Shown here: piece by piece, positions 1 to 31,505 of the stretch | Position numbering within the stretch: position 1 is the first letter of the stretch | Layout: each line of letters opens with the position of its first letter | Assembly (NCBI GenBank): GCA_028686425.1 | Contig: JAQUBZ010000010.1 | Location: forward strand, 39,585 to 71,841 | Reading direction: 5' to 3' | DNA length: 32,257 bases | Origin: Bacteroidales bacterium | GTDB taxonomy: Bacteria; Bacteroidota; Bacteroidia; Bacteroidales; UBA932 | Notes under the pieces: model-generated | Told to the model about the DNA's origin: nothing | Databases searched by the model: none | What the model saw: the letters and a program-made list of their open reading frames with translations, nothing else | Position numbers and translations under genes: made by a program

Positions 1-116
1 CCGCATCAGAGGACCGCACGGAGGCCGTGTGTTCAAGAGTAACGCAGAACACGGCAAGGCCGGGAGTGCGTGAACCTTCCCCCCAAGGGGGAATTTAAAG
101 GGGGTCAAAAAAAGAG
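1..116. other. GC-rich non-coding end of window
   Basis: I see no credible gene here. The stretch is clearly richer in G and C than the rest of the window. It lies just beyond the 3' end of tmRNA, a position where mobile elements often integrate. It contains a short G/C hairpin (listed separately) and a T run on the tmRNA strand immediately after the tmRNA 3' end. The first 100 bases read open in one plus-strand frame and stop at about 96, but the peptide resembles no family I know, and such open frames are expected in GC-rich sequence. Confidence 0.5.
77..93. repeat. G/C hairpin, possible dispersed intergenic repeat
   Basis: TTCCCCC at 77-83 and GGGGGAA at 87-93 form a perfect 7-bp inverted repeat around a 3-base loop. 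A further GGGGG follows at about 100-104 after an AT-rich spacer. Bacteroidales genomes carry many short intergenic repeats of this look, so a dispersed repeat is likely, but only one copy is in the window. It could also help end tmRNA transcription, although the T run lies before the hairpin in that direction, not after it. Confidence 0.4.
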
Positions 117-510
117 TGGAGATGGGCGGACTCGAACCGCCGTCCAAACAAAGCGCCCGAAAGCTTTCTACATACTTATCCTTCTCTTGATTGTCGGGAG
201 ATAACTGCCTGCAGGCCGGCCATTATTTCCGTATCCTCGTAATCTTAGTGCACTTTAGAGGAGTAGATGCACGCAGTAAACTTGAATGATACCCCGATTG
301 CCGGACATAGTTCACGTAAAGTCGGGCGGGATACTCGTCGCAACTGCCCTGGGCAGCGCGATTAAGGAGTCGGACTATGTCAGACTACGCAGCGAGTGCA
401 TAATTGTTATTGCCAGTTAATGGCTTGAGATCTGAGATTAACGAGCCGGGTCACGAAGCTCGGTATGCTTACCTTCTGACATCATTTGCTGTCAAAACCA
501 AAACATCCCC
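117..510 (-). ncRNA. ssrA: tmRNA (transfer-messenger RNA)
   Basis: tmRNA rescues stalled ribosomes by acting as an alanine tRNA and then as a short mRNA encoding a degradation tag. On the minus strand the 5' end GGGGATG pairs with CATCTCC at the 3' end to form a 7-bp acceptor stem with one G-U pair. A TTTTGACA element follows the 5' end, as in other tmRNAs, and a T arm with GGCGG/CCGCC around TTCGAGT precedes the acceptor strand. The discriminator base is A and CCA is not encoded. The length of about 394 nt is normal for the order. The tag reading frame is at 385-414. A possible -7 box, CATCTTTG on the minus strand (533-540), lies about 23 nt upstream of the mature 5' end and is one base off the TAnnTTTG consensus. 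Confidence 0.95.
385..414 (-). other. tmRNA proteolysis-tag reading frame
   Basis: The frame reads GGC AAT AAC AAT TAT GCA CTC GCT GCG TAG, giving tag (A)GNNNYALAA, where the first alanine comes from the charged tmRNA. From memory, related Bacteroidales tags are of the GENNYALAA or GETNYALAA type, so the ending is standard, and asparagine replaces the acidic residue at the second encoded position. The resume codon is inferred by matching tag length to those relatives. Confidence 0.85.
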
Positions 511-563
511 AATATTTCAAACAACTTCACCGCAAAGATGCAAAAAATAAACCGAACGTTGCA

Positions 564-1934
564 TCAATCCACCATAATTTCCGAAAAACTTTTGGAATAC
601 TCTTCGCCATAGAGCGTGAGATATTCCTTTGTATAGTTGCTATATAGCTGTTTAGCAAGCGTATGCTTGCCAATTTCTTTGAAAGCCTTACATTTGTATT
701 CCAGTCCGATTTCACTCAATGGATCAAACACAAACAGGGCATCACAAATTTGTATTATCAAATTGGTTTCGTCTTTGACATTTAGTCCGGTAATATAACT
801 TGACAATATAGTTATGACAGAGTCCGATATATCCGATTTGATGGAATCAAGCCATTCTGCATCAAAATTATTAATGAATTGCCCTTTCTCCACAATAAAG
901 AGCAATCGTCTTACATCTCCCTTTGAGACGATACCTTTGGACATTATCTGCAAAAATTGAAGATAATCTATATCGATTCCCGATATTTCAATTTTCCAAT
1001 AGCCGCTTTCTCCAACTATTTTACAATCTCCAATGTTGTTGATAAGGTTTCTGAGTTTGTTGAAATAAACACATCTGTTGTTATTGGCACTTTGCTCACT
1101 TTTGTCATACCATAAAATTGACTTTAATGATTCGGAAGAGACACCCTTGCCATTTGAATGGCAGATCAGCAGAAAAAACAATTCTTTCAGAATAGGAGAG
1201 AACTTGCTTGAAATATTAATTCCGTCTTTAGAATAAGCCCTGAAATCGCCGAATAATGAGATTTCGGATACTTTTTCCCCTTCTTCTTTTATAAATTCTC
1301 TATGCCTGACGGTAATATTCTGTTCTTTTGCATCTTTTTCCGCCTTGTCTCTCTTTTTGTTCTGTCTGTGTATATAGGCAAATACTATGATGTCAAATAG
1401 AATTATTGCCACAATCCAGATAAATTCATTTCGGTTTTTATTGTCGATGACGGTTTCGAGTATCTCAAATGTCACTAAATCTATGCAATCGGCAGATGGA
1501 AATGGTGTTATTGTCAATCTGCTTCCCGAAATATTCAAATTGTCGATATTGTCAAAAACAATGGTGTCCGAACTGCCGATAATTATACAATTTTTCTTTA
1601 CCTTATCTATTGAAATATTGTACCTTATAGTATCATTGACTGTAATTATCCTATCAGAATACTCTCTAATTCGTCTTGTCTCTTTTTCCGAGATGAAAGA
1701 GATATAAGTTTCGTTTTCCTGGGAGTACTCATAAATAATGGAACATAACAATAAATTGTTTTGAGAAATGGACACTATTTGTTCATACATACTCCCTTTA
1801 AAATTGTCATTCGGAGAAAATACAATCTCAATGGAATATACGTCGGCAGGTGAAACAATTCGACTGTTTTCAGCTCCGAATAATAATTGTATCGACATCA
1901 ACAATATTGCAACGACTATAATAATATGTCTCAT
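564..1934 (-). CDS. membrane-anchored SARP-like transcriptional regulator
   Basis: The 456-residue protein starts with a signal peptide (about 1-21). It then has an extracytoplasmic domain rich in beta-strand-like segments (about 22-168), one TM helix (about 171-188) and a Lys/Glu-rich linker. Residues about 226-318 resemble an OmpR/SARP-type winged helix, with FGDF, a stretch like 'LFFLLICHSNGKGVSSESL', ILW and NNNRCVYFNKLRNLI. Residues about 322-450 form a helical region like the BTAD domain of SARP regulators. The layout implies an external signal passed to a membrane-tethered DNA-binding domain, the reverse order of ToxR. The gene diverges from the SusC/SusD unit, so it probably controls that unit. 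The periplasmic domain may be lectin-like (LamG fold), which is a guess. ATG 1932-1934 begins the hydrophobic leader. Confidence 0.75.
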   Translation of the reverse strand: MRHIIIVVAILLMSIQLLFGAENSRIVSPADVYSIEIVFSPNDNFKGSMYEQIVSISQNNLLLCSIIYEYSQENETYISFISEKETRRIREYSDRIITVNDTIRYNISIDKVKKNCIIIGSSDTIVFDNIDNLNISGSRLTITPFPSADCIDLVTFEILETVIDNKNRNEFIWIVAIILFDIIVFAYIHRQNKKRDKAEKDAKEQNITVRHREFIKEEGEKVSEISLFGDFRAYSKDGINISSKFSPILKELFFLLICHSNGKGVSSESLKSILWYDKSEQSANNNRCVYFNKLRNLINNIGDCKIVGESGYWKIEISGIDIDYLQFLQIMSKGIVSKGDVRRLLFIVEKGQFINNFDAEWLDSIKSDISDSVITILSSYITGLNVKDETNLIIQICDALFVFDPLSEIGLEYKCKAFKEIGKHTLAKQLYSNYTKEYLTLYGEEYSKSFSEIMVD

Positions 1935-1948
1935 CTCCTGTTTTTCTA

Positions 1949-1964
1949 CAAAAATAATATTATT
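1949..1964 (-). promoter_or_regulatory. -7 box of the regulator gene overlapping an AT palindrome
   Basis: On the minus strand TATTTTTG (1949-1956) matches the Bacteroidota -7 consensus TAnnTTTG exactly and sits 14 nt before the regulator's ATG. No TTTG is found at -33, and the implied leader is very short. A perfect 12-bp palindrome, AATAATATTATT (1953-1964), overlaps it in the 123-bp divergent spacer. It is a candidate operator, but AT-rich palindromes are common by chance. I find no convincing promoter for the plus-strand unit; the nearest is TAATTTTA just before 2041. Confidence 0.35.
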
Positions 1965-2057
1965 ATTGTAAATAATTATTTTTTTAAGGAGAAATTAAGG
2001 TATTTGTTAAGAAATTCATTCACTCTTTCTCGTAATTTTACAAAAGAATTAACTGAT

Positions 2058-3434
2058 ATGGTATTATTAGGAGGCTTAATAGCTATTCATTTAGTGGCAC
2101 TTACAATTTATATGCTGCTGAAGAAGTACAATGCTTCAATAACATTGCTTATAATGGGTATGGCAATGACATTAATAGCATTTTTACTAAATATTAATGG
2201 GCTTGTAAATACTAATGTGGATTTTATTCTGTTTACGCTCTTTGACAATATTGTTAATGCTTTTTCCGAACGCATTTCCGGAGTAGGTTTGATGGTTATG
2301 TTGCTTTGCGGATATGTTGAATATATGAAGAGAATAAAGGCAAGTGACGTATTTGTATATGTGATGATGCAGCCTTTATCGGTTTTTAAGAAGTACCCTT
2401 ACCTGGCGACAATACTTATTATTCCTATCGGACAGATTTTATCACTTGCGATTCCTTCAGCGGCAGGCGTTGCTCTGCTGCTCGTAGCTACAATTTATCC
2501 GCTGCTGCTTGGGCTGGGAATGAATAAAATGACAGCTTTGACGGCGATAGTAGCGTGTACATTGCTTGATTTCGGAGTAAACTCGCCTTGTTCTATAATG
2601 GCAGCAGAAGTACTTGGAATGGATATCGTTACCTATTTCAGCTATCAGATAAAGATTGTGATACCGATGTGCATTGTAATAATGGTAGTCTATCTCGTAT
2701 ATTATATATGGATTGACAAGTATCACAAACCGAATAGGATTCCGAAAGAAAAGACGGCCGAAATATCGGAATGGCGTAATATCGTTCCTTTGTATTATGC
2801 CGTACTGCCTGCACTTCCGTTGTTGCTTTCAATTATTTTTTCACGATTTCTACCATTGTCCGATAAGGGGTATTACCTTGATTTGAACGCATCTATCCTT
2901 CTCTCATTTTTTATAGCGGGGATTGCCGATATTTTCAGGAGACGCTCTGTAAAAGATGCTTTCTCTTCAATGACTATTTTCTGGCAGGGAATGGGGAAAA
3001 TATTTGCAACAGTTGTTGTTCTTATCGTTGCTGCCGATATATTTGCCGAAGGGCTGAGAAGTATCGGTTTTATAGATTCGATGATATCGGTTGCACAGTC
3101 ATTGAATCTCGGTAAGACGGGAATTACTATCATGCTCTCCCTTATGGCTTTCTTTTCGACTGCAATTACGGGAAGTGGGATTGCCTCTTTCGATGCCTAT
3201 CGGCAGATTGTCCCTGACGTTGCCATGCAATTCGGAATGGATCCGTTATCACTGATGATGCCGATTCAGATGATTTCCGGAATAGGAAGAGCAATAACAC
3301 CAATAGCAATTGTTATGATTGTGCTTTCTGAAGTGGGGGGAGTTTCCCCTTTCAAACTTGCCAAACACAATCTTATACCGATTGCTGCAATTGTAATAAT
3401 ACTGCTATTATATACGTTGAATATCAATTATTGA
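2058..3434 (+). CDS. DcuC-family C4-dicarboxylate transporter (divergent paralogue)
   Basis: This 458-residue inner-membrane protein has about a dozen hydrophobic segments. It aligns along its length with the protein at 9764-11146. Shared elements include FKKYPY, IPIGQ, SAAGVALLLVATIYPLL, FWQGMG, FATVV, LIVAADIF, GFIDS and a C-terminal GVSPFKLAKHN. These mark the DcuC family, which moves C4-dicarboxylates such as succinate, fumarate or aspartate. It departs from its paralogue where the other has GPGSANTALASQL (here VNSPCSIMAAEVL) and MGSGNAAFFSFGP (here ITGSGIASFDAYR), so the substrate may differ. An upstream ATG at 1887 would add 57 residues overlapping the divergent gene. ATG 2058 matches the paralogue's N-terminus and is preferred. 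It is the first gene of the unit, 26 nt before the next. Confidence 0.82.
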   Translation: MVLLGGLIAIHLVALTIYMLLKKYNASITLLIMGMAMTLIAFLLNINGLVNTNVDFILFTLFDNIVNAFSERISGVGLMVMLLCGYVEYMKRIKASDVFVYVMMQPLSVFKKYPYLATILIIPIGQILSLAIPSAAGVALLLVATIYPLLLGLGMNKMTALTAIVACTLLDFGVNSPCSIMAAEVLGMDIVTYFSYQIKIVIPMCIVIMVVYLVYYIWIDKYHKPNRIPKEKTAEISEWRNIVPLYYAVLPALPLLLSIIFSRFLPLSDKGYYLDLNASILLSFFIAGIADIFRRRSVKDAFSSMTIFWQGMGKIFATVVVLIVAADIFAEGLRSIGFIDSMISVAQSLNLGKTGITIMLSLMAFFSTAITGSGIASFDAYRQIVPDVAMQFGMDPLSLMMPIQMISGIGRAITPIAIVMIVLSEVGGVSPFKLAKHNLIPIAAIVIILLLYTLNINY

Positions 3435-3460
3435 CCGAATATTAACTATTAACACACAAT

Positions 3461-5002
3461 ATGTATAAAAAATTTCTCATCGTTTGCTTCTTGATGCTCT
3501 GTACTGCTTCCCTATTTGCGCAGATACAGAGCATGGAAGTGACACAAAAGTTTTATCCAAATCCGGATATGACTTTTTCTACTCCTACTCTGTCGATTGC
3601 ACAGGATAGATTTGCTTCCTATCAGGAGATTATGGAGTGGATAAGTTCAAGGGCTCTGAAAGATGACAGGATGTCTGTTGAAATGGTAGGTGTTTCTTCC
3701 AAAGGTAGAGAAATACCGATGATCAAACTTTCCAATAGAAATAATGATGCTTCCAAAATCAAAGTATGGATGCAGGGGGCAATTCACGGTAATGAACCGG
3801 CAGGGGCGGAAGGATTGTTTATGCTTACCGACTATATTCTGAATAACGAAGCAGGAGGAAAGTATCTTGACAAAATCGACCTCTATATTTTGCCTATGGC
3901 CAATATTGACGGATATTTCGCCGATACAAGAGCATCGGCGGATGGGTATGATTTAAATCGTGACCAGACTAAATTTGCTGATAAAGAGAGTGTTATTATT
4001 AAAAAAGCGTTTATGGCGGTTAATCCCGATGTGGCTATAGATTTTCACGAATTCAGTCCTATCAGAAAAGAGGTGGCTTTCATTGGGGAAAAAGGCGGGG
4101 CAATATATTACGATGTATTATTTCTTCCAACAGGTTATCCAAATGTTCCCAAGGCTCTTAGGAAGGCTACCATCAAGTATTTGCAGACTCCTGCCGAAAA
4201 AAAGCTGGATAAAGCGGGTTATTCGCACTTCTTCTATTTTTCTATAGATGATTCGGGAGAGGAACCGGTTCTGGCCAAGGGAGCCAAAAGTCCGCAATCA
4301 AGCTCCACCTCATATTCTTTGTCAAATGCAATATCTATTTTAGTGGAAATCAGGGGGATAAAGTTTGGGAGACTTTCTCTTGAGAGGAGGACCAACTCGG
4401 TATTTATAGTAGCTGAATCGGCCCTTGAACAAACTTACAACCATAGTAAGGCTATAAGAAAAATAGTTGACAAATCAATCAATCGTACTATTCAGAGGAG
4501 GGACAACATCAGCGTTACGGGAGTTTCTTCCGAAAAAAGACTTCCTGTACAATTTGTTGATTTTGCGACTAATGAGCTTGTTGAAAAGAACTTGCTCGTA
4601 AAAGACGCTCTTGAATACAAGAGCCTGATTGTTCGCGACAGACCTATTGGTTATATTATCGAGAAAGGAGAGGAGGCCGCGATAGACAATTTGAAAACAT
4701 TGGGAATAGACATTATCGAAATTGAAGAAGATTGGAATGCGGATGTGGAAAGTTACAAAGTTATCGAATACACTACGGCAAAGAAGAGCTGGGAGAAAAT
4801 TCATCGTGCTGCCGTAAAAACCGAAATCATTAAGCAGAATAAAATATTTCCGAAAGGATCTTATTGGATAAGATTGAATCAGGAAAATGCCAATTTCGCC
4901 GTTTCGGTGCTCGAACCCGAATCAGACAACGGATTTGTCACATTCAGAGTTATTGACACTGAAAAAGGTGAAATATTGCCTATACATCGTGTAATGAAAT
5001 AA
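3461..5002 (+). CDS. secreted M14-family zinc carboxypeptidase
   Basis: This 513-residue protein begins with a signal peptide (about 1-20, cleavage near LFA-Q) and has no lipobox, so it is periplasmic or secreted. The M14 active site is visible: zinc ligands H109 and E112 in HGNEPAGAEG and H196 in DFHE, the substrate-binding NR in YDLNRD (N166-R167), and a likely catalytic Glu at E296 in LVEIRG. The M14 domain covers about 50-330. The C-terminal 180 residues carry no motif I recognise. M14 enzymes usually remove C-terminal residues from peptides, and some act on peptidoglycan peptides or acyl-amino acids. Its place between a transporter and SusC suggests it trims the imported substrate. The exact specificity cannot be read from the sequence. 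Confidence 0.85.
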   Translation: MYKKFLIVCFLMLCTASLFAQIQSMEVTQKFYPNPDMTFSTPTLSIAQDRFASYQEIMEWISSRALKDDRMSVEMVGVSSKGREIPMIKLSNRNNDASKIKVWMQGAIHGNEPAGAEGLFMLTDYILNNEAGGKYLDKIDLYILPMANIDGYFADTRASADGYDLNRDQTKFADKESVIIKKAFMAVNPDVAIDFHEFSPIRKEVAFIGEKGGAIYYDVLFLPTGYPNVPKALRKATIKYLQTPAEKKLDKAGYSHFFYFSIDDSGEEPVLAKGAKSPQSSSTSYSLSNAISILVEIRGIKFGRLSLERRTNSVFIVAESALEQTYNHSKAIRKIVDKSINRTIQRRDNISVTGVSSEKRLPVQFVDFATNELVEKNLLVKDALEYKSLIVRDRPIGYIIEKGEEAAIDNLKTLGIDIIEIEEDWNADVESYKVIEYTTAKKSWEKIHRAAVKTEIIKQNKIFPKGSYWIRLNQENANFAVSVLEPESDNGFVTFRVIDTEKGEILPIHRVMK

Positions 5003-5021
5003 TATATCTAATCATAACTTT

Positions 5022-7949
5022 ATGAAAAAATTACTATTAATGCTAATACTGTCGGCTATTTCGATTGCCGCAGTCGCTCAAATCAAGGGAAAAGTAATTG
5101 ATGGAGCTAATGGCGAACCCTTTATGGGGGTCAGCGTATTGATAAAAGGGACTATGGTCGGGGCGGAAACTCAGGCTGATGGTTCTTTTACACTCCCTGC
5201 CCAAATAGGAGATATTGTCCTTTTTTCTTTTATCGGGTACCTTGAACAAGAGGTGAAAATTACAGATAACAGAGAATTGAATATAACTCTCATGCAGGAT
5301 ACCAATCTTATTACAGAAATTGTAGTGGTCGGTTACGGTTCGCAGAAGAAAAGCGATGTGACCGGTGCGGTTGCCTCATTCAATACCAAACAATTGGAAG
5401 AGAGGCCTAATGCAAATATCATTCAGACCCTTCAGGGAGCAATTGCAGGATTGAATATTTCAATGACAGGTTCGGATGCAGAAGGCTCTATGTCTTCTAC
5501 CAGGATCAGAAGCAATAATTCCATTTCTGCGTCAAACAAGCCTCTTATTATTTTGGACGGAATTCCTTTTTCGGGTTCGTGGTCCGAAATCAACTCAAAT
5601 GATGTCGAGTCTATTGAAGTATTGAAAGATGCCTCATCATCGGCAATTTACGGTGCAAGAGGCTCTAATGGTGTTATCTTGATTCAAACCAAGAAAGGTA
5701 AAGGCGAGAAGGTGGCTGTTTCATACAATGGTTACATATCCATGAACAAGGCCATCAATATTCCTCAAATGATGGATGGAGAAACATTTTTTCAGAGGAA
5801 AACGGAATCAGGCGGAGATATGACCATGACCGAAATTGAAATGCACGATAAGGGGCAATCTACGGATTGGCTTGGGCTTGCACTTCGCACAGGCTACAAA
5901 ATGCAGCATAACGTCTCTTTCAGAGGTGCTTCCAAGACCACCAGATATTATTTTTCTGCAAATATGAACGACAACAGAGGGATTGCCGTAAACGATGATT
6001 TTTCAAGATATTCATTGAGATTCAATCTGGAACAGGACCTCGGAAAATGGGTTAAATTCGGAACAAACACACGTTATGGATATTATGACAGAAGTGGTAA
6101 TAACATTAATTTCAGTAGTGCTTATCTGATGAATCCTCTTGGCTCTCCATATTACGAAGATGGCTCTCTGAGACTTCAGGTATGGGAAGACAATAATTAT
6201 GCAAACAACCCTTTAAGTGCACTCAATGAGCTTAATAACGACATTACCCGATCACTTGTCACAAACAATTACATAGATGTGAAATTTCCTGTTAAAGGGC
6301 TGACTTACAGGCTAAATACAGGTTATTCCTATAAAACTCGCCTATACCAGAATTATCAGGGGCTTGATACAGTCAACGGACTTGCAAATGGTGGTGTTTT
6401 GAATATTGCAAATACATACAGCGAAGATTGGCTGATTGAAAATATTCTTTCTTACACACGTGAATTCGGAAAGCATACAATTTTCCTGACGGGTCTATAT
6501 TCTGCTCAGTATGAGGATCGTATTGCTAATTCTATCGAAGCATCCAATTTTCCTAATGACGTTATGACCTATTGGCAGCCAAATAAAGCTGCATCTACTT
6601 CAACTTCTGCCTCAAGGACTACAATGACACACGTTTCTCAAATGATTCGTGCCAACTACAGTTACGATTCAAGGTATCTGTTCACATTTACGGCAAGAAG
6701 AGACGGATATTCCGCTTTTGGAGAGAACAAGAAATATGGTATATTTCCTTCAGTTGCATTGGGATGGAATGTTGTAAACGAGGATTTTGTAAAGGATTCA
6801 GGTTTCGGAAGACTATTCAATAATTTTAAGGTGAGACTTTCATGGGGCAAAAACGGAAATGAGGCGATTGACGCTTATTCCACTCTCCCTGTTTTGAGAG
6901 GAAAAAACTATCTTACAGATGACTACAGTGCGGCTTTCGGATTTTATCCTTCACAGCTTGCCTCACCTCTTCTCGGTTGGGAAACTACAACTTCTTTTAA
7001 TGCGGGGATCGATTTCGGCTTATTGAACAATAGAATTAAAGGTACGTTGGATTTATATACCACTAATACATACGATCTGTTGTTGTGGAGAACCATTCCG
7101 TCAATCAATGGTACAAGTTCTGTCCTTGAAAATATCGGAAAGACAAAAGGTCGGGGCATAGAATTTCAAGTATCGTCTGTAAATGTCACAAATAAGAATT
7201 TTACATGGAGTACCGATTTCAACATCGTCCATTCTTCATCTGAAATTGTGGATGTCGGTCTATATGACGATGCAGGAAATGCCATGGATGATATTGCTTC
7301 CGGCTGGTTTGTCGGCTATCCTGTAAGTGTCAATTATGACTATTTGTTTGACGGTATTCACCAGGTGGGAGAGAGTGTTTCATATACATCTCCTCTCTCG
7401 CAGCCAGGTTATGTAAAGTATTGGGATCTTGATGGTGACGGAGTGATTGATACTGAAGACAGAGGCATTATCGGAAGTCGTGAGCCGTCATTTACATTTG
7501 GAATGAATAATACATTCTTCTACAAAAACCTCTCTCTTTCTATATTTGTAAATGGCTCGGTAGGAGCAACTTATCCAAATTATTTACTATCAACTCACAC
7601 TTTGTCGTACAGACAGAACCAGTTGAACAAGGAGTTCTGGACAGAGGCAAATCCTATTAATACCTATCCTGCAAATATTGGAGACGGTTCGGTTAACACT
7701 AAACGTATGGACTTTTATGAAAAGACTGATTATCTGAGAATTAAAGATGTCAGCCTTGCGTACAGATTTCCAGAAAAGATTTCCAAAAAGATAGCTTTGA
7801 GCAGACTTGAAGTCTATATCAATGCAAAGAATTTATATACTTGGACTTCGTGGTCAGGTCTTGACCCTGAATTTGTTTCATCGGGAAGCAATCAGAGGGC
7901 TATTCCTCAGACTTTGGAACTATTGTTTGGTTTAAGATTCGATTTTTAA
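5022..7949 (+). CDS. SusC/RagA-type TonB-dependent outer-membrane transporter
   Basis: The 975-residue protein has a signal peptide (about 1-19) and an N-terminal carboxypeptidase-regulatory-like beta domain (about 21-97, from GKVIDGANGEPFMGVSV). It then has the EIVVVGYGSQKKSDVTGAV segment, the plug with PLIILDGIPF and the family signature YGARGSNGVILIQTKKGKG (about 207-227), and a long beta-barrel ending in aromatic DF. It forms the pore of a SusCD importer powered by TonB. The partner SusD follows after 19 nt. SusCD pairs take up glycans, but RagAB of Porphyromonas gingivalis takes up peptides. The peptidase genes on either side favour a peptide-like ligand here. Length and domains look complete. 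Confidence 0.95.
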   Translation: MKKLLLMLILSAISIAAVAQIKGKVIDGANGEPFMGVSVLIKGTMVGAETQADGSFTLPAQIGDIVLFSFIGYLEQEVKITDNRELNITLMQDTNLITEIVVVGYGSQKKSDVTGAVASFNTKQLEERPNANIIQTLQGAIAGLNISMTGSDAEGSMSSTRIRSNNSISASNKPLIILDGIPFSGSWSEINSNDVESIEVLKDASSSAIYGARGSNGVILIQTKKGKGEKVAVSYNGYISMNKAINIPQMMDGETFFQRKTESGGDMTMTEIEMHDKGQSTDWLGLALRTGYKMQHNVSFRGASKTTRYYFSANMNDNRGIAVNDDFSRYSLRFNLEQDLGKWVKFGTNTRYGYYDRSGNNINFSSAYLMNPLGSPYYEDGSLRLQVWEDNNYANNPLSALNELNNDITRSLVTNNYIDVKFPVKGLTYRLNTGYSYKTRLYQNYQGLDTVNGLANGGVLNIANTYSEDWLIENILSYTREFGKHTIFLTGLYSAQYEDRIANSIEASNFPNDVMTYWQPNKAASTSTSASRTTMTHVSQMIRANYSYDSRYLFTFTARRDGYSAFGENKKYGIFPSVALGWNVVNEDFVKDSGFGRLFNNFKVRLSWGKNGNEAIDAYSTLPVLRGKNYLTDDYSAAFGFYPSQLASPLLGWETTTSFNAGIDFGLLNNRIKGTLDLYTTNTYDLLLWRTIPSINGTSSVLENIGKTKGRGIEFQVSSVNVTNKNFTWSTDFNIVHSSSEIVDVGLYDDAGNAMDDIASGWFVGYPVSVNYDYLFDGIHQVGESVSYTSPLSQPGYVKYWDLDGDGVIDTEDRGIIGSREPSFTFGMNNTFFYKNLSLSIFVNGSVGATYPNYLLSTHTLSYRQNQLNKEFWTEANPINTYPANIGDGSVNTKRMDFYEKTDYLRIKDVSLAYRFPEKISKKIALSRLEVYINAKNLYTWTSWSGLDPEFVSSGSNQRAIPQTLELLFGLRFDF

Positions 7950-7968
7950 TGAATAAGGAGATAAAACA

Positions 7969-9759
7969 ATGAAACGAATATTATATATTTTATCGATAGT
8001 GTCAACATTGACACTCAGTTCATGCAATAAAGATTTTCTCGTAGAAAATCCCGTGAATGATATATATGCTGAAAATCTGTTAGTTAACCTTGACGGTTTT
8101 GAAAGTATGAATTATGCACTTCTTTCGTTTGTCCGTGACGAATACGGCAGATTGGATATCAGTTACGGAAGTACATCTTTCAGCTCTCTTCCTTTTGCAA
8201 AATCTGTGATGTGGAGTTGTGGTATAGACAATACATGGGGAAATAACAGACATAATCAGACAAGATTTTTCAGTTATCCTAAAAATATTGTGGCCATGAC
8301 AGATGGAGAGGTCTTTTTGTCTCTCTTTGAATGGCTGTATAAAGTAGTAAATACTGCCAACATGGTTATCAACCGTGCTGAAAATCCGGATGTTGACTGG
8401 CAGGGAGGTTCTCCTGCGGCGGACCTTGCCAACAAGGAGAGAATTATTGCAGAAGCAAGATTATACAGAGCTTGGGCGTACAGGCATCTCACATATTCTT
8501 TCGGAGATGTTCCGTTAAGCACCGAAGAGATTACCGGGGAAAACTATCGTGTCGATTGGGAACGTAATTCGGTTGCCGATATACGTAAAGTCATGGAGGA
8601 AGATTTTCAATATGCAATAGATAAACTGCCGATGCGAAGCAATGGTAATAACACAAAGCCCAATCAGGCAGTTGCACGTCATTATCTTGGCGAATTATAT
8701 CTTGCCGAAGGTAATCCGTCATCTGCAAAATCCGTATTACAACCACTTGTAGAGGGTGGAGATTACTCATTGATGACATCAAGATTCGGTAAAGATGCTT
8801 CATCTTCCGGTAATCCTTTTATGGATGTGTTCAGATCTCCGCTTTATACAGAGGGGAATAATGAGGTTTTGTGGGCTTTTCTCAATACGGAAGATGAAAA
8901 TGTGGCGTATGGCAATGCTCCATCCATTTTTATGAAAAATATGTGGCAGAATTACTATTCCAATTTATCACAAGTAAAAAATCTGAAACACTCTCAATAC
9001 GAAGGGACCACCATTAAATTGTTCTGGTCTCTGAATGGAGGAAAGGGTGCAGGCAGGTGTGCTATTTCTTTAGGTGCTTTTGCTCTTTATAAATATGATA
9101 ATCAGCAGAATAATGATTACAGATATGGAGATGACGCATTTGTATGGCATCTTTATTTTCTTGATGAGAACAATACTCGGTATGAAGTATTAAATTCAAA
9201 ATCAAGTCTTATCAATCTCAAGGCCAACTCGGCCATGAGCAATGATAATGATCCCACTATCAAGCAGTATAATCTTCCTTCCACCAGAAAGTGGAGTTAT
9301 GTGTATCCTATATTCGATCGTTCAGATGATGACCAGCAATACAATGATATGGTTTATTTGAGATTGGCTGAAACATATTTGCTCTATGCAGAGGCTCTCT
9401 ACAAACTCGGAGATGCTACAGGCGCTGCACAGTGGATAAATAAGATAAGAAGTCGTGCCAACGTTTCATCTATACCGGCATCGGCCGTTTCCATCGATTT
9501 CATACTTGATGAACGCAGTCGTGAGTTGATTACCGAAGAACAGAGAAGGCATACTTTAATTCGCCTTAGCCAGGAAAATGGTGGAAATGAACGCCTTTCA
9601 AGCAGTATATTTAAGACAAGGGTCAGAACATATAATGAAGTTTCAGGTAGAGAGGTCAGAGGTATGCACGATGATGACACTCCGGTGTTATTTCCTGTAC
9701 CACAGAAGTTTATAGACTCCAATACCGGAAGACGGATAGAACAGAATCCGGGATATTAG
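7969..9759 (+). CDS. SusD/RagB-type nutrient-binding lipoprotein
   Basis: The 596-residue protein begins with a lipoprotein signal ending LSSC, with the lipidated cysteine at C19 and CNKDFL typical of SusD. Family features include an early ANMVINRAE helix, the RLYRAWAYRHL segment, NQAVARHYLGELYLAEG TPR-like helices, the LRLAETYLLYAEALYKLGD segment near 460, and the C-terminal LFPVPQKFI and QNPGY. It acts as the lid of the preceding SusC and captures ligand at the cell surface. SusD proteins are specific to their ligands, and this sequence does not reveal which ligand it binds. Confidence 0.95.
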   Translation: MKRILYILSIVSTLTLSSCNKDFLVENPVNDIYAENLLVNLDGFESMNYALLSFVRDEYGRLDISYGSTSFSSLPFAKSVMWSCGIDNTWGNNRHNQTRFFSYPKNIVAMTDGEVFLSLFEWLYKVVNTANMVINRAENPDVDWQGGSPAADLANKERIIAEARLYRAWAYRHLTYSFGDVPLSTEEITGENYRVDWERNSVADIRKVMEEDFQYAIDKLPMRSNGNNTKPNQAVARHYLGELYLAEGNPSSAKSVLQPLVEGGDYSLMTSRFGKDASSSGNPFMDVFRSPLYTEGNNEVLWAFLNTEDENVAYGNAPSIFMKNMWQNYYSNLSQVKNLKHSQYEGTTIKLFWSLNGGKGAGRCAISLGAFALYKYDNQQNNDYRYGDDAFVWHLYFLDENNTRYEVLNSKSSLINLKANSAMSNDNDPTIKQYNLPSTRKWSYVYPIFDRSDDDQQYNDMVYLRLAETYLLYAEALYKLGDATGAAQWINKIRSRANVSSIPASAVSIDFILDERSRELITEEQRRHTLIRLSQENGGNERLSSSIFKTRVRTYNEVSGREVRGMHDDDTPVLFPVPQKFIDSNTGRRIEQNPGY

Positions 9760-9763
9760 AGAT

Positions 9764-11146
9764 ATGTACATGGGAGCTTTATCGTTCATACTTTGTATTG
9801 CCATTATAGTAGGAACAGCATTTCTGCTATATAGGAAGTACAATCCTCAGGCAGTGCTGATCTTTTCAGGACTGTCAATGGTGGCATTGGCTGCTTCCAT
9901 CGGAATATCTCCGGTGGAAGTGTCAAAGCCTACAGGAACCTCAATTTTCGACCTTATTCAAATCATAGAGGAGCGATTTATATCCAATTTTACGAGGGCA
10001 GGCCTGATGATAATGGTGATAGGAGGCTATGTGGCTTTCATGAACAAGATTCAGGCGACAAATGCACTTGTTCATATTGCCATCAAACCTTTAGCCTTTT
10101 TCAAGAAGTACCCGTATATTGCATCGATTGCTGCTATTCCTATCGGTCAGCTGCTGTTTATGACAACACCTTCGGCCGCCGGAATAGGATTGCTGCTTGT
10201 TGCCTCTGTTTACCCTATTCTGGTAAATCTCGGTGTGAGCAAATTGACTGCATTATCTGTTATTTCTGCCGCTACACTGTTTGACCAGGGACCGGGTTCG
10301 GCCAATACGGCGTTGGCATCACAACTTGTTGATATGGGTGCAATTGAATATTTTTTAAAGCACCAACTGCCCAATGTTGTCCCGACAACTGTTATTTTGA
10401 TGGCAGTATTTTATTGGAATAACAAAAGATGCGATAAGAGAGATATTGCGAAGGGAAAGCAGATTTTCAGTGAACCTATGGACGAAAATCAAAAGCTTGA
10501 GGTTCCTAAATGTTTTGCCCTGCTGCCGCTTCTTCCTCTACTACTTTTGATAATATTTTCAGACTATATAGGCCTTTTTCATGTAAAATTGTCCACAACC
10601 GTGGCAATGTTAATTTCGTTTATATTTTCAGTTATTTGCATAATTGTCTATAAACGTAACATAAAAGAGGTATTTTCATTAATTGGAAGTTTCTGGCAGG
10701 GGATGGGAAATGTGTTTGCAACGGTCATAACACTGATAGTAGCTGCCGAAATTTTTTCAGGAGGGTTGATAAGTCTCGGTTTTATCGATTCGCTTGTCTC
10801 CGGTACCACTACATTGGGGTTCAGTGGAATAGCAATATCCGTACTGATAACAGCCATTGTATTTTTAGCCGCAATGCTGATGGGAAGCGGTAATGCGGCA
10901 TTTTTCTCATTCGGACCTCTTATGCCGGGGATTGCCGCCAAACTCGGTATGCCGGCTGTACAGATGATACTGCCTATGCAACTTGCTGCAAGCATGGGAC
11001 GTGCGACATCTCCTATTGCGGGAGTAATCGTAGCAATTGCAGGGGTAGCAGGAGTTTCTCCCATGGATTTGGCTAAAAGAAATCTGCTGCCTCTGATTGT
11101 AGGAATAAGTTCTTTAACAATAATTCATTTTGTATTCGGAATATGA
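9764..11146 (+). CDS. DcuC-family anaerobic C4-dicarboxylate transporter
   Basis: This 460-residue polytopic inner-membrane protein is closer to typical DcuC than its paralogue at 2058-3434. It keeps TPSAAGIGLLLVASVYPIL, TLFDQGPGSANTALASQL, FWQGMGNVFATV, LMGSGNAAFFSFGPLMPG and MGRATSPIAG. DcuC carriers export succinate or exchange it for other C4-dicarboxylates in anaerobes. It lies 4 nt after SusD, and its TGA overlaps the ATG of the dipeptidase (ATGA), which implies translational coupling. Coupling to an aspartate-releasing enzyme fits a role in exporting succinate made from aspartate via fumarate, or in aspartate/succinate exchange. ATG 9764 is taken as start; ATG 9770 is also possible. 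Confidence 0.87.
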   Translation: MYMGALSFILCIAIIVGTAFLLYRKYNPQAVLIFSGLSMVALAASIGISPVEVSKPTGTSIFDLIQIIEERFISNFTRAGLMIMVIGGYVAFMNKIQATNALVHIAIKPLAFFKKYPYIASIAAIPIGQLLFMTTPSAAGIGLLLVASVYPILVNLGVSKLTALSVISAATLFDQGPGSANTALASQLVDMGAIEYFLKHQLPNVVPTTVILMAVFYWNNKRCDKRDIAKGKQIFSEPMDENQKLEVPKCFALLPLLPLLLLIIFSDYIGLFHVKLSTTVAMLISFIFSVICIIVYKRNIKEVFSLIGSFWQGMGNVFATVITLIVAAEIFSGGLISLGFIDSLVSGTTTLGFSGIAISVLITAIVFLAAMLMGSGNAAFFSFGPLMPGIAAKLGMPAVQMILPMQLAASMGRATSPIAGVIVAIAGVAGVSPMDLAKRNLLPLIVGISSLTIIHFVFGI

Positions 11147-12255
11147 TAACACTAATTAAAAATGCTAAAATATATTCTCCCAACCCATTGAAGGGGAGAG
11201 AGATATTAATATCTGACGGCACGATTGCCGCCATATCCGACAAAATAACTTTGATTGGATGTGATATAAATGTAGTTGATGCTTCCGGCTGCTATGTGTG
11301 CCCGGGATTTATAGATGAACATGTCCATATTACGGGTGGAGGCGGTCAGATGGGGCACTCGTCATTTATTCCGGAAGTCACTGTCGCCGATTTGGCAGCT
11401 GTGGGAACTACTACAGTTCTCGGTCTGCTTGGAACTGATGGTTTTGTGAAAGAGCTTTCAACGCTTTATTCAAAAACCAAAGCACTTGACGAACAGGGAA
11501 TTACGGCTTATATGCTAACAAGTTATTATGGCCTTCCCGAAAAGACAATCACCGGTTCAATTGCCGAAGATATGATTTTCATCGACAAGGTGATAGGATG
11601 CAAATTGGCAATGAGTGACGATAGATCATCTTTTCCTACGGAGCAGGAAGTGTTGAGGCTTGTCAATCAGGTCAGGCTGGGGGGATTTACTTCCGGAAAG
11701 CATGGAATATTGCATATACATTTGGGCAATCTCAGTACTAAAATTGACATAATTCTCTCTATCATAGATAAATATCCTACATTAATCACGTATTTTTCAC
11801 CGACACATACCATCCGTACAAGGGCTTTGTTTGATGATTGTGTCCAATTTGCCAAAAAGGGCGGTATGATTGATATTTCTACGGGAGGAACCAAATTTAC
11901 CGAACCTCATCTTGCTGTCGGAATGGCTCTTGAAATGGGAGTTCCTCTTGAAAATATGGCATTTTCAAGTGACGGCAGGGGTGGAGTAAGGCGTGAAAAT
12001 CCACAGACAGGAGAAATTACCTATACTCCTGCCCCTTTGGACTTGAATTATAAGGAGTTTGTCTGCCTTGTCAGGGAAAATATCCTCCCTCTCGAACAAG
12101 CTTTGATGCTGCTGACTTCAAATCCGGCACGCAATCTTTCATTGAAGCGCAAGGGTAAAATTGCCGTTGGCGCGGATGCCGATTTTGTATTTTTAGATGA
12201 AAATCTATCCATTAATTCTGTTTATGCAAAAGGAAAAAATATTACTAAAAGATGA
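11143..12255 (+). CDS. iadA: isoaspartyl (beta-aspartyl) dipeptidase, IadA-like
   Basis: This 370-residue cytoplasmic amidohydrolase (no signal peptide) aligns with E. coli IadA at a constant offset of 8 residues through the active site. It keeps the metal ligands H60, H62, bridging K154, H193, H222 and D277, and also Y129, R161 and R225. IadA splits beta-Asp-X dipeptides, which arise from protein isomerisation or cyanophycin breakdown, into aspartate and X. Two substrate-pocket residues appear changed against E. coli: E77 is Q69 (GGGGQMG) and S289 is G281 (SSDGRGG). This alignment was made from memory. The changes leave catalysis plausible but make the exact substrate uncertain. The start overlaps the upstream transporter stop by 4 nt, and the stop overlaps the next ATG the same way. 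Confidence 0.88.
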   Translation: MITLIKNAKIYSPNPLKGREILISDGTIAAISDKITLIGCDINVVDASGCYVCPGFIDEHVHITGGGGQMGHSSFIPEVTVADLAAVGTTTVLGLLGTDGFVKELSTLYSKTKALDEQGITAYMLTSYYGLPEKTITGSIAEDMIFIDKVIGCKLAMSDDRSSFPTEQEVLRLVNQVRLGGFTSGKHGILHIHLGNLSTKIDIILSIIDKYPTLITYFSPTHTIRTRALFDDCVQFAKKGGMIDISTGGTKFTEPHLAVGMALEMGVPLENMAFSSDGRGGVRRENPQTGEITYTPAPLDLNYKEFVCLVRENILPLEQALMLLTSNPARNLSLKRKGKIAVGADADFVFLDENLSINSVYAKGKNITKR

Positions 12256-13139
12256 AACATACTATTATTTATTTGACAATCATGACTTTATGTGTCCTAT
12301 TGTCGGGATGCGCAAAAAAAAGTGATTATATTTTTCACCGTGGCTCGGACATGGCCGAATTTAGATGTGAGGCACCATTTCAGGGATTGACAATCCCTGT
12401 GTATTATCATATTCCAATGGATGGAAATGTGTCAGAAATGCCTGTACAGTTTGTTATGCACGGTGTGGGAAGAAATGCCGATGATTATCGCGATGCATGG
12501 GTCGAAAAAGCCGACCAATATGGGTTTATTGTTATCACTCCAAAATTTTCCAAAAGTGATTTTCCCGAATCAGACTATCAGCAGGGGCGCATTATTGATA
12601 AAGACGGATTTTTCAGTGATAAAGACAGCCTTACATACGTTCTGATTGATCAGATTTTCAATTATTTTGTTGAAAATAGTGATTCAAAAGCACGTAAATA
12701 CAATATTTACGGACACTCGGCCGGAGCTCAGTTTGTTCATAGGTATATGATGTACAATGATACGCATTTGGTTGAAAAAGCCATTTCGGCCAATGCCGGG
12801 TGGTACACTATGCCCACAGATACAATAGATTTTCCATACGGGCTTGGAGCAAGTCTTGAACAACTTAAATTGGATAAAAAGGCATATTATGCCAAAAATA
12901 TGACCATTTTGCTCGGAGACGCAGACACTGTTCGTACGTCCGACTTAAGGGTTACGCCTGAGGCTGATATGCAGGGATTGAACAGATTGGCTCGCGGACG
13001 CAATTTTTTCGATTATTGTCGGACAGATGCTCAAAAGATGGGTGTTCCTTTCAATTGGAGTTTGCAATATGTCAGCGGTTCCAACCATTCAAACAAGAAA
13101 ATGGCCCCGGCAGCTGCCGATATATTATATGGTCGGTAA
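12252..13139 (+). CDS. lipoprotein alpha/beta-hydrolase, function unknown
   Basis: The 295-residue protein has a lipoprotein signal ending LLSGC (lipidated C20), so it is anchored outside the cytoplasm. The rest looks like an alpha/beta-hydrolase of the poly-hydroxybutyrate-depolymerase/LpqC type. It has an oxyanion region at VMHGVGRNADDY, the nucleophile elbow GHSAG with S156, a probable acid in GDADT (D223 or D225), and a probable His at H279 in GSNHSN. It could be an esterase, amidase or peptidase. As the last gene of the unit, overlapping iadA by 4 nt, it probably acts on the imported compound, for example by removing an ester or amide group. The substrate is not known. Confidence 0.75.
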   Translation: MKHTIIYLTIMTLCVLLSGCAKKSDYIFHRGSDMAEFRCEAPFQGLTIPVYYHIPMDGNVSEMPVQFVMHGVGRNADDYRDAWVEKADQYGFIVITPKFSKSDFPESDYQQGRIIDKDGFFSDKDSLTYVLIDQIFNYFVENSDSKARKYNIYGHSAGAQFVHRYMMYNDTHLVEKAISANAGWYTMPTDTIDFPYGLGASLEQLKLDKKAYYAKNMTILLGDADTVRTSDLRVTPEADMQGLNRLARGRNFFDYCRTDAQKMGVPFNWSLQYVSGSNHSNKKMAPAAADILYGR

Positions 13140-13163
13140 ACAACATATTTCAATTCTGAAACT

Positions 13164-13808
13164 TTATTCGCCTATTAGCAATTGAATGACCCCTTCTGCA
13201 GTGGAGATGATACCGAGGACTGCGATGATTACTCCCGAAATGCGGTTGATGTATAGAAGTTGCCTGAGTCTGAATCGTTTTCTGAAAATATTGATTGTGG
13301 CTGTAAGGACAAACCACCATGCTGCCGTTCCGAGAAACACTCCGGCCAGTATGACCGAAACGGTATATTTCTCGTAAGAGTCGCCTGTGGTGATTCCGAC
13401 AAAAGCAAATAATCCGAGTAGAAGGACAAGCGCTCCGGGGTTTGTTATTGTTACGGCAAGTCCCTGAAGTATTTCCTGCACGTGTTTTTTACTTCCGATA
13501 TTTTTAGGCTGCCTCAGCTGCCTGACAGGATTGGTGATGGCGATCCGGATACCTATGATACAGATAATCACTCCTCCGATAAGCATGACCCACACTCTGT
13601 TGGCCATTATGAAATCATTGATGAATGCCAAAGAAAACAAGGCTATGGCGGCATAGAAAGTATCCGCAATAGAAGACCCCAGCCCCAGAGAGAAGCCTGA
13701 ATGTCTCCCTTTGCTGATGGTTTTCTGAATGCACATTATACCTACCGGTCCCAAAGGAATCGAGGCTCCAAGCCCTACAATCAACGCTTTTATGAAATTA
13801 TCAAGCAT
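13164..13808 (-). CDS. LysE/RhtB-family amino-acid exporter
   Basis: This 214-residue inner-membrane protein has about six hydrophobic segments. LysE-family features are the N-terminal GASIPLGPVGIMCI segment, the GLGSSIADTFYA segment, and GLAVTITNPGALVLLLGLFA in the middle. Relatives export lysine, arginine, threonine, homoserine or similar compounds. The true substrate cannot be told. ATG at 13806-13808 is chosen because the alternative upstream start (13859) adds 17 residues without family resemblance and runs over the -7 box at 13830-13837. It converges with the lipoprotein hydrolase, leaving 24 nt, and diverges from lnt. Neither neighbour suggests a shared pathway. Confidence 0.85.
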   Translation of the reverse strand: MLDNFIKALIVGLGASIPLGPVGIMCIQKTISKGRHSGFSLGLGSSIADTFYAAIALFSLAFINDFIMANRVWVMLIGGVIICIIGIRIAITNPVRQLRQPKNIGSKKHVQEILQGLAVTITNPGALVLLLGLFAFVGITTGDSYEKYTVSVILAGVFLGTAAWWFVLTATINIFRKRFRLRQLLYINRISGVIIAVLGIISTAEGVIQLLIGE

Positions 13809-13829
13809 ACAATCCAAGTATTTTGCGGG

Positions 13830-13837
13830 CAAAGTTA
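13830..13837 (-). promoter_or_regulatory. -7 promoter box of the LysE-type gene
   Basis: TAACTTTG on the minus strand matches the Bacteroidota -7 consensus TAnnTTTG exactly, 21 nt before the chosen ATG. No TTTG lies at the usual 19-21 nt upstream. The position supports the shorter start of the gene. Confidence 0.45.
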
Positions 13838-13860
13838 TCATAATTTGGCAAAAAATCACC

Positions 13861-13868
13861 TATCTTTG
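13861..13868 (+). promoter_or_regulatory. -7 promoter box of lnt
   Basis: TATCTTTG is an exact match to TAnnTTTG, 24 nt upstream of the lnt ATG, so the leader would be about 18-20 nt. A clear -33 TTTG at the right spacing is missing. A TTTG 13 nt upstream is too close. Confidence 0.5.
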
Positions 13869-13892
13869 TGAGGATTAATTAAAAATGATAAA

Positions 13893-15512
13893 ATGAATAC
13901 GCAGAACCGGATTATCAAATTCCAAATATGGAGCCTCATCGTGATGTTTGCATTGTTATCTTCGCTTCCTTTTCTGGTGCCTCATTGCGGATTGTTTTCT
14001 CTGATTGCTTTTGTTCCATTATTTTACCTCGAAAAATTATGCTCGGATTATCACATAAAGCATACATGGTGGTATTATTTTACGGCATTTCTGCTTTTTA
14101 ACATAGCTTCCACTTTCTGGATTTATTTTGTTTCGGCAGCCGGATCTGTTGCGGCACTAACCCTCAATGCCCTTCAGATGACAGTCATATTTTCGGTATT
14201 CAGATGGGGCAAAAAGAGATTTCCGGATTACAATATACTCCCATATCTGTTTTTTATTGTCATGTGGCTTGCGTGGGAGCACATCTATTTCAATGTGGAA
14301 ATATCGTGGCCGTGGCTTGTTCTCGGCAACTCGTTTGCCACATCCGTAAAGCTTGTACAATGGTATGAAATATTCGGCACAGTGGGAGGGTCATTGTGGA
14401 TTTTGCTTACCAATGTATTAATCTATTTCACTGTGTTGTCTCTTTGCAACGATTACTCCAAAAGATCTGTAAAATGGTTCTTTTCCATTTCAGCTTTTTT
14501 GCTTATTGCGGTACCCGTGGTGTGTTCTCTTGTAAGATATAACAATTACAAGGAGACGGAGCCCGGTATTGAAGTAGTTGTGGTTCAGCCTAATATAGAT
14601 CCCTTCAAAAAATACGGCATTCTTCCTCAGGAGGAACTGGATAGGAACATGCTTGAGCAGGTCGGAGGGATTATAACCCCAGATACGAAGTATATTATTA
14701 CCCCTGAGACATTTACATACGGCTTGGATCTCGACAATCCTACAGGAAGCGCCTCATTTTTAAGATATAGGGATTTCTTATCCAAGTATCCTGAAGTCAA
14801 TCTGTTGGTAGGCGTTTTGACCTATAAGTATTATCCCACCTATTCCAAGCCGACATCATCGGCCCGTCCAAACGGAAAGTTCTGGTATGATGTATATAAT
14901 ACGGCTCTGATGATGGATTATGACGGAAGATTTGAGTACTACCATAAGTCGAAGCTTGTACCGGGAGTGGAAATCATTCCTTATCAGCAGTATGTGCCAT
15001 TTTTAGCCGATCTGATATCCAAATTCGGAGGGGCTGACAATAGTTATGGTACTCAGGAAGATATGTCAATTCTTGAAGGAAATGACGGCAACAAGGTTGG
15101 AGCGATGATTTGTTATGAGTCCATTTATGGAGATTACTCACGCAGGGCCGCTAAAATGGGGGCCACATTTATGGCAGTGATGACAAATGACGGATGGTGG
15201 GGAGACACTCCGGGTTACAGACAGCATTTCAGGTATGCTTCCTTGAGAGCAATAGAGATGAGGAGGGATGTAGTTCATGCCACCAATACCGGAATATCCG
15301 GCTTTATCAACCAAAGAGGTGATGCTTCGCAAAAGACACCTTGGTGGGAGGCAGTAGCCATAAGGGGAGAGGTTCATCCCAATTCGGTCATTACACCTTT
15401 CACAAAATATGGCGATGTGGTCGGCTTGACTGCAGCTTACGCCTTCTTGCCTCTGCTGATTCTGTTTTTCATGCACGGCTTTTTAGAAAAAAGCAGAAAA
15501 AAGCGCTCCTGA
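13893..15512 (+). CDS. lnt: apolipoprotein N-acyltransferase
   Basis: Lnt transfers the third acyl chain from phospholipid to the N-terminal cysteine of lipoproteins in the inner membrane. The 539-residue protein has an N-terminal block of TM helices (about 12-220), a nitrilase-like catalytic domain (about 225-505) and a final TM helix. The expected Glu-Lys-Cys triad is visible as E272 (ITPETF), K352 (YYHKSKLVP) and C407 (GAMICYES), followed by VMTNDGWWGDTPG and TNTGISGFI. Size is near that of E. coli Lnt (512). It has its own -7 box and converges with the UbiD-family gene, with 31 nt between the stop codons. Confidence 0.93.
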   Translation: MNTQNRIIKFQIWSLIVMFALLSSLPFLVPHCGLFSLIAFVPLFYLEKLCSDYHIKHTWWYYFTAFLLFNIASTFWIYFVSAAGSVAALTLNALQMTVIFSVFRWGKKRFPDYNILPYLFFIVMWLAWEHIYFNVEISWPWLVLGNSFATSVKLVQWYEIFGTVGGSLWILLTNVLIYFTVLSLCNDYSKRSVKWFFSISAFLLIAVPVVCSLVRYNNYKETEPGIEVVVVQPNIDPFKKYGILPQEELDRNMLEQVGGIITPDTKYIITPETFTYGLDLDNPTGSASFLRYRDFLSKYPEVNLLVGVLTYKYYPTYSKPTSSARPNGKFWYDVYNTALMMDYDGRFEYYHKSKLVPGVEIIPYQQYVPFLADLISKFGGADNSYGTQEDMSILEGNDGNKVGAMICYESIYGDYSRRAAKMGATFMAVMTNDGWWGDTPGYRQHFRYASLRAIEMRRDVVHATNTGISGFINQRGDASQKTPWWEAVAIRGEVHPNSVITPFTKYGDVVGLTAAYAFLPLLILFFMHGFLEKSRKKRS

Positions 15513-30541: not shown

Positions 30542-30543
30542 AA

Positions 30544-31503: not shown

Positions 31504-31505
31504 TA

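Follow-up and report, generated by a model that had tools for sequence, protein, structure and literature searches.

Gene organization of the locus

We analysed a stretch of 32,257 nucleotides (nt) from the genome of a Bacteroidales bacterium (assembly GCA_028686425.1, contig JAQUBZ010000010.1), hereafter the window, with a focus on a candidate uptake-and-degradation locus at positions 564–13139. The open reading frame (ORF) list of the window contains seven close-set plus-strand genes, which diverge from a minus-strand gene for a membrane-anchored regulator (REG, 564–1934; ORF list, alignment, AlphaFold2 and Foldseek). The plus-strand genes encode, in this order, a DcuC-family inner-membrane carrier (DcuC-1, 2058–3434; Pfam and NCBIfam), a carboxypeptidase A/B-like zinc peptidase (M14, 3461–5002; Pfam, fold and conserved residues), a SusC/RagA-type TonB-dependent transporter (SusC, 5022–7949), a SusD/RagB-type surface lipoprotein (SusD, 7969–9759), a second DcuC-family carrier (DcuC-2, 9764–11146; NCBIfam and neighbourhood comparison), an M38 amidohydrolase resembling the isoaspartyl dipeptidase IadA (IadA-A, 11143–12255; TIGR01975, residue comparison and tree) and an α/β-hydrolase assigned by sequence comparison to the poly(aspartic acid) hydrolase-1 (PahZ1) family (EST, 12252–13139). 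The genes are separated by gaps of 26, 19, 19 and 4 nt or share 4-nt overlaps (two cases). We took the ATG at 2058 as the start of DcuC-1, for which the ORF list has a longer TTG frame from 1887; the flanking gene starts then leave a divergent intergenic region of 123 nt (1935–2057), which is presumably regulatory.

The family scans (Pfam and NCBIfam) took in 10 proteins of the window, encoded from 564 to 15512. The two carriers scored 179 and 224 bits against Pfam DcuC, the peptidase 74 bits against Peptidase_M14 and SusD 111 bits against SusD_RagB, while SusC matched TIGR04056 with 799 bits. ORFs, Pfam and NCBIfam all agree with the gene places and families given in a first-pass annotation of this DNA, and no carbohydrate-active enzyme was found among the scanned proteins, as that annotation had also noted. 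The parts named in its headline gene set stand, but the set left out the seventh plus-strand gene, EST, which proved to be the most informative.

Conservation across Bacteroidota

Relatives of the locus were sought in a family sample of 149 genomes (match threshold E 1e-20), in a scan of named genomes and in order and phylum samples, the source genome (2.2 Mb in 51 contigs) being counted in both of the latter. An IadA-like match was found in three of the 149 family genomes, namely the source genome, which carries a second IadA-like gene, and two genomes of the same genus (G067 and G052). Both same-genus genomes retain the full order, with REG facing DcuC-1, M14, SusC, SusD, DcuC-2, IadA-A and EST. 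Their genes are 49–75% identical to those of the window, with SusD at 75% (G067) and 74% (G052) and REG at ~30%. The core is kept in 16 further loci, one of which lies within the source genome.

Together, the IadA-like relatives that are 46–70% identical to the window enzyme make up 19 loci in 18 genomes (Group A); two loci were recovered as two pieces each (L019 with L072, L020 with L073) and counted once. Group B comprises canonical IadA enzymes, 32–41% identical, from 66 places in the order and phylum samples, of which 29 neighbourhoods were examined. Five weak IadA matches among the 11 loci of the named-genome scan (L013–L017, Firmicutes-labelled) are without the other parts and were placed in neither group. 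Some neighbourhood flanks end at contig edges.

In every one of the 19 Group A loci, the gene directly upstream of the IadA-like gene is a DcuC gene in the same orientation. M14 is present in 17 of them (L018 has none and L012 stops at a contig edge), and EST in 14 (not in L007, L011, L018, L067 and L068). The outer-membrane part varies: SusC and SusD occur in six loci, and two porin-like genes flank M14 in 11. The first porin of L009 matches Porin_O_P with 40.7 bits, and the second is without a Pfam match. The regulators vary too, being REG-like in seven loci, MocR-like in nine and an extracytoplasmic function (ECF) sigma/FecR pair in L063. By contrast, neither DcuC nor EST was found near canonical IadA in any of the 29 Group B neighbourhoods examined, although a weakly similar M14 (24–30%) was seen in five.

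In the order sample, EST occurs in seven of 393 genomes, that is, in five of the seven Group A genomes versus two of the 386 others (Fisher's test, p 6e-9), and in the phylum sample in 19 of 395, that is, in all four Group A genomes versus 15 of 391 others (p 4e-6), both tests ignoring kinship. The other parts of the locus were not near EST in the two remaining genomes of the order sample (G229, E 7e-31; G173, E 9e-17). Genome-wide, DcuC gave 18 matches across 12 Group A genomes, eight of which have a single copy that stands beside IadA-A. The possibility of chance neighbours is rejected on the DcuC-IadA linkage in all 19 loci and on these genome-wide counts, with one DcuC beside IadA-A per genome; the chance estimate for the latter likewise ignores kinship. 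The locus is thus a conserved uptake-and-cleavage module in Bacteroidota. The first-pass annotation had proposed a single uptake locus, and the comparison bears this out for the core; SusCD, in contrast, is not constant.

Several other features were seen in these loci. Linked secreted-looking proteins form a cluster with members in 12 Group A loci, in most cases ahead of DcuC; the five scanned include three with lamin-tail domains, a leucine-rich repeat protein in L066 and three with type IX sorting tails. In L068 (9745–10843, genome G274) the IadA-like frame is broken, and in L008 (8148–9998) an insertion of ~500 bases separates two DcuC halves; either may be an assembly error. The source genome also carries a paralogous SusC-SusD-DcuC set (L112, G000:C34:163-6333; 57, 54 and 54% identical), and since this set runs off the contig end, the genome may hold yet another copy of the system.

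EST as a member of the PahZ1 family

The closest solved relatives of EST are two PahZ1 chains (E 5e-54 and 6e-53), followed by LpqC (3e-38). EST shares 42% and 36% identity with these two chains, against 41% between the chains themselves. The presumed catalytic triad, S156, D225 and H279, was assigned from the α/β-hydrolase pattern and is invariant in 17 of 17 compared sequences, and the protein start carries a lipobox-like motif (LLSGC, by eye). We infer that EST belongs to the PahZ1 family, with a predicted activity on β-amide bonds within a chain. PahZ1 of Pedobacter sp. KP-2 is reported to cleave β-tri(Asp), to have no action on α-tri(Asp) or on either β-di(Asp) tried, to leave L-L, D-L and D-D dimers, and to be related to polyhydroxybutyrate (PHB) depolymerases (PMC4456602). 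We also considered EST as a PHB depolymerase; the Pfam and NCBIfam scores for this identity are below the cut-offs, and PahZ1 is the better fit.

In two genomes, EST and M14 are encoded in one open frame (L063 and L064), which speaks for one extracytoplasmic substrate shared by both enzymes. The L063 fusion has a DUF4886 stretch between the two, at 20.3 bits and below the cut-off.

EST neighbourhoods outside Group A were examined for 11 of the 15 phylum-sample genomes concerned. EST occurs together with M14 in three of them, of which L125 holds a PepT-like M20 peptidase with POT and NhaC carriers and L128 a PepT-like M20 peptidase with AbgT (family models), while L126 was likened to L125 by gene sizes and starts only. 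These three may be regarded as another recurring set, in which a PahZ1-like hydrolase and M14 stand with a PepT-like peptidase and carriers, named by models in L125 and L128. Elsewhere, EST is accompanied by a DASS carrier, a DUF4886 protein and a distant SusC, with no match to M14 or IadA (L122), by a distant SusC of 22–23% identity (L120 and L121) or by a weak DctA-like match of 25% (L127), and none of the query genes is present in four of the 11. EST-like matches also occur in 24 plasmid records, three neighbourhoods of which were examined: on a Microvirga plasmid (L117) the EST relative has an oligopeptide ABC transporter on one side and an M20 peptidase on the other, and nothing similar was found in the other two. 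The informative contexts outside Group A favour peptide-like substrates.

An IadA-like clade with an altered pocket

The window IadA-like protein is ~37% identical to IadA of Escherichia coli and passes TIGR01975 narrowly, with 343.8 bits against a cut-off of 331.25. Residues are numbered here after the E. coli enzyme (1onw), in which positions 77 and 289 correspond to Q69 and G281 of the window protein. Equivalents of the metal ligands (H68, H70, K162, H201, H230 and D285) and of the leaving-group residues R169 and R233 are present in the window, and Group A as a whole keeps all metal ligands, Arg169 and Arg233, L068 being unreadable at 285 and 289. Other positions have changed. Glu77 is Gln in seven of the 19 Group A sequences, including the window, Lys in 11 and Glu in one; Ser289 gives way to Gly in all 18 sequences readable there; Tyr137, kept in the window, is Phe in six of 19; and His168 is replaced by Asp, Glu, Ile, Val or Pro, with Asp or Glu in 12 of 19. 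No change at Glu77, His168 or Ser/Cys289 is seen in any of the 31 sequences of Group B (29 loci and two solved chains). In a tree of 48 rows, Group A, represented by 17 rows after exclusion of the broken L068 and the cut L012, is set apart from the other rows by a 100/100 branch (length 1.28).

The meaning of these changes can be read from IadA of Colwellia (5xgw), in which the Glu77 equivalent is reported to touch the α-amino nitrogen of the substrate, and a Glu-to-Gln mutant to be inactive on β-Asp-Leu (PMC5517026). The same paper describes Cys297, the equivalent of Ser289, as touching a substrate oxygen and calls the α-carboxylate essential; that this oxygen belongs to the α-carboxylate is our own reading. 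The IadA-A clade has likely changed the acyl half that it binds and retained an amino-acid-like leaving half, because Glu77 and Ser289 are replaced and the metal and leaving-group residues are kept.

The first-pass annotation had taken the enzyme for an ordinary β-aspartyl dipeptidase, and thus the locus for one that scavenges isoaspartyl dipeptides. This would require IadA-A to work despite its substitutions, for example with Asp168 substituting. The TIGR01975 match, the metal ligands, Tyr137, Arg169 and Arg233 kept in the window, and the acidic residue in place of His168 in 12 of 19 sequences all speak for such an activity. Nevertheless, Glu77 and Ser/Cys289, retained in all canonical sequences compared, are changed in the clade, the change carried by the window matches the inactive Colwellia mutant (PMC5517026), and DcuC and EST are missing from the canonical iadA loci examined. 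Ordinary isoaspartyl dipeptides are therefore not well supported as the final substrate, and we regard this explanation as improbable.

Alternatively, the end substrate may be a β-aspartyl dipeptide with D stereochemistry or a changed α-amino group, derived from PahZ1-type leftovers or aged proteins, for which Gln or Lys at 77 and Gly at 289 would refit the pocket. The dimers left by PahZ1 include D-L and D-D forms besides L-L (PMC4456602), and a neutral or positive residue 77 together with Gly289 could suit swapped positions of the amino and carboxylate groups. The second IadA-like copy of the source genome (L018), the one Group A member that retains Glu77, would suit a division of labour between copies. 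We nonetheless consider this explanation rather unlikely.

L018 itself is a mini-locus (2274–6133 of its neighbourhood, G000:C47), in which a REG-like gene diverges from a DcuC-IadA pair, with no M14, EST or SusCD; it is flanked by two genes resembling beta-lactamase-type serine hydrolases (by eye). Plasmids gave IadA matches in 32 records, the best 15 of which are mostly from Citrobacter and Escherichia and named iadA; the one plasmid region examined is unannotated.

M14 peptidase and C4-dicarboxylate carriers

M14 is carboxypeptidase A/B-like by both profile and fold. Its residues H109, E112, H196, N166-R167 and E296 are invariant in 15 of 15 sequences, and we take them to be the zinc ligands, the catalytic Glu and the Asn-Arg pair that binds the terminal carboxylate. 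The protein start is signal-peptide-like (by eye). We also considered PahZ2, an M20-type enzyme, as the identity of M14 and rejected it, since no PahZ2-named chain is among the M14 matches listed.

The carrier directly before the IadA-like gene is of the DcuC-2 type in 18 of 19 loci and of the DcuC-1 type in L018; a second DcuC within the locus was seen in the window, G067 and G052 only, with DcuC-1 at the same place in all three. Similarity search detected a DASS-like gene in seven Group A loci, of which the family model names that of L009 only. L007 and L010 each have a gene resembling DctA, and here the model names that of L007 only. A DUF4886 protein, SGNH-hydrolase-like by eye, occurs in L007, L067, L068 and L122.

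These carriers bear on a further candidate substrate, the oxygen counterpart of β-poly(aspartate): poly-β-malate, or else a different β-malyl ester. In that case, EST would serve to depolymerize a polyester and DcuC, DASS and DctA to transport malate, and malyl-malate, a dimer lacking an α-amino group, would be cleaved by the IadA-like enzyme. In favour of such a substrate are the missing α-amino contact residue of the IadA-A clade, three unrelated families of C4-dicarboxylate carriers, the DUF4886 proteins together with the sub-threshold stretch in the L063 fusion, and L122, with its EST, DASS and distant SusC but neither M14 nor IadA. The kinship of PahZ1 with PHB depolymerases (PMC4456602) and the weak PHB-type family matches of EST point the same way. 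On the other hand, the characterised EST relatives, PahZ1, are amidases, and in L125, L128 and L117 the neighbours of EST relatives are peptidases or transporters of peptides. Furthermore, both M14 and M38 enzymes normally act as amidases, and regulators of the MocR type, found in nine of 19 loci, usually sense amines. A malyl ester thus appears to be an unlikely substrate.

The membrane-anchored regulator

REG has no Pfam match up to E 0.01, and its alignment comprises seven sequences. In the AlphaFold2 model (mean predicted local distance difference test, pLDDT, 72.5), a transmembrane helix at 169–199 is preceded by β-strands. The modelled cytoplasmic part consists of a winged helix like that of Streptomyces antibiotic regulatory proteins (SARPs) followed by helical repeats, and Foldseek places it near AfsR (8hvr, E 1.4e-6) and EmbR (2fez, E 2.9e-6).

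Proposed substrate and mechanism

What a PahZ1-like hydrolase, a carboxypeptidase, C4-dicarboxylate carriers of three kinds and a dimer hydrolase derived from IadA have in common is a β-linked chain of C4 dicarboxylic units, and as a substrate class such chains are well supported. Within this class, aspartyl chains fit the PahZ1 activity and the peptide contexts of EST relatives. We somewhat favour a catabolic locus for β-linked C4-dicarboxylate oligomers or polymers, most likely β-aspartyl (isoaspartyl-type) oligo- or polypeptides. The first-pass proposal of β-aspartyl utilization survives in its chemistry, which now rests mainly on EST and the three kinds of carriers, whereas its IadA part does not hold as written.

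On this proposal for β-aspartyl chains, an anionic chain would cross the outer membrane via SusD and SusC, or via the two porins in most relatives. EST, by homology to PahZ1, would cut internal β-amide bonds and leave dimers, and the exported M14 carboxypeptidase would remove residues at the carboxyl end. DcuC may then carry either this dimer or a C4-dicarboxylate released from it across the inner membrane, possibly exchanging it for succinate, to the cytoplasm, where the IadA-like enzyme, with a pocket altered where ordinary IadA contacts the α-amino and α-carboxylate groups, would split the dimer. The SARP-like regulator anchored in the membrane would sense the substrate outside and turn on the operon.

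Several observations weigh against β-aspartyl chains. To our knowledge, there is no natural β-poly(aspartate), nor do we know of DcuC carriers acting as peptide importers. Glu77 and Ser289 are replaced in the clade, as is Tyr137 in six of 19 sequences; in Colwellia IadA the matching Glu-to-Gln mutant is inactive on β-Asp-Leu, and the Ser289 equivalent contacts what we take to be the essential α-carboxylate (PMC5517026). EST and M14 are unseen in five and two, respectively, of the 19 Group A loci, while 15 of 391 phylum-sample genomes outside Group A have EST, and eight of the 11 such neighbourhoods examined are without M14. Finally, the outer part of REG resembles galectin-like jelly rolls (Foldseek, from 7e-5), in a model region of low confidence (pLDDT block means 37–67), and a surface protein of L010 has a CBM_48 match of 27.6 bits; these two are weak hints of a glycan.

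A bolder possibility, to which we give tentative credence at best, is that this locus is the first natural set of genes recognised as serving the use of β-linked poly(C4-dicarboxylates); its substrate would be poly-β-malate, or chains of D-β-aspartyl units, and the IadA-like clade would hold a new activity that lacks L-α-amino recognition. If so, PahZ1-type hydrolases, known from a man-made polymer, would gain a natural role.

Surrounding DNA

EST is followed by a LysE-type gene on the minus strand (13164–13859) and by lnt (13893–15512), both named by Pfam and NCBIfam. Over positions 1–14000, Rfam detected nothing besides a tmRNA on the minus strand (114–510; tag GNNNYALAA). The scan for promoters and terminators was uninformative, with 63 and 16 sites, respectively, against 41 and 11 in shuffles. 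Farther downstream, the minus strand carries a run of genes that by eye resemble those of arginine biosynthesis (27367–32171); one of them encodes a carbamoyltransferase, possibly an N-succinyl or N-acetyl one.

Comparison with known systems

No such cluster was found in the literature searched, mostly outside subscription journals. The parts belong to known families, and the assembly, its conservation, the EST-M14 fusion and the altered IadA clade appear to be undescribed in that literature. Through this locus, PahZ1, an enzyme family examined on a synthetic polymer, is linked to a natural operon that is conserved, which opens its natural substrate to direct testing. It also reveals a clade that a database cut-off names β-aspartyl peptidase, though a residue needed in the studied relative is gone, and a single degradation core whose outer-membrane partner is SusCD in some loci and a pair of porins in others. 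If the β-aspartyl assignment is true, these genes would be candidates for the environmental breakdown of polyaspartate.

The window shares with SusCD-type, polysaccharide-utilization-like loci the adjacent susC and susD, degradative enzymes and a regulator, but has no carbohydrate-active enzyme among its 10 scanned proteins. RagAB and some other SusCD pairs import peptides, and the window resembles such importers in having a SusCD pair for a presumably non-glycan substrate; unlike them, it adds dedicated hydrolases and C4-dicarboxylate carriers, and 11 of 19 loci have two porins instead. With IadA of E. coli and Colwellia, the window enzyme has the metal site, Arg169 and Arg233 in common, whereas its clade has Glu77 and Ser289 replaced, forms the separate branch and stands behind DcuC in every Group A locus. 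Cyanophycin utilization loci share with the window the logic of an isoaspartyl dipeptidase with a transporter, and the IadA of that study is reported to have broad β-aspartyl dipeptidase activity (PMC10206079). Cyanophycin utilization was rejected for the locus on the absence of a cyanophycinase match among the ten proteins scanned with Pfam and NCBIfam, the whole genome not having been searched for this enzyme; the first-pass annotation had likewise noted none. The PahZ1 enzymes of Sphingomonas sp. KT-1 and Pedobacter sp. KP-2 are of the same family as EST by sequence and have the same presumed triad. PahZ1 has been described as a single enzyme acting on synthetic aspartate chains (PMC4456602), whereas EST is part of a conserved uptake operon and is twice fused to M14.

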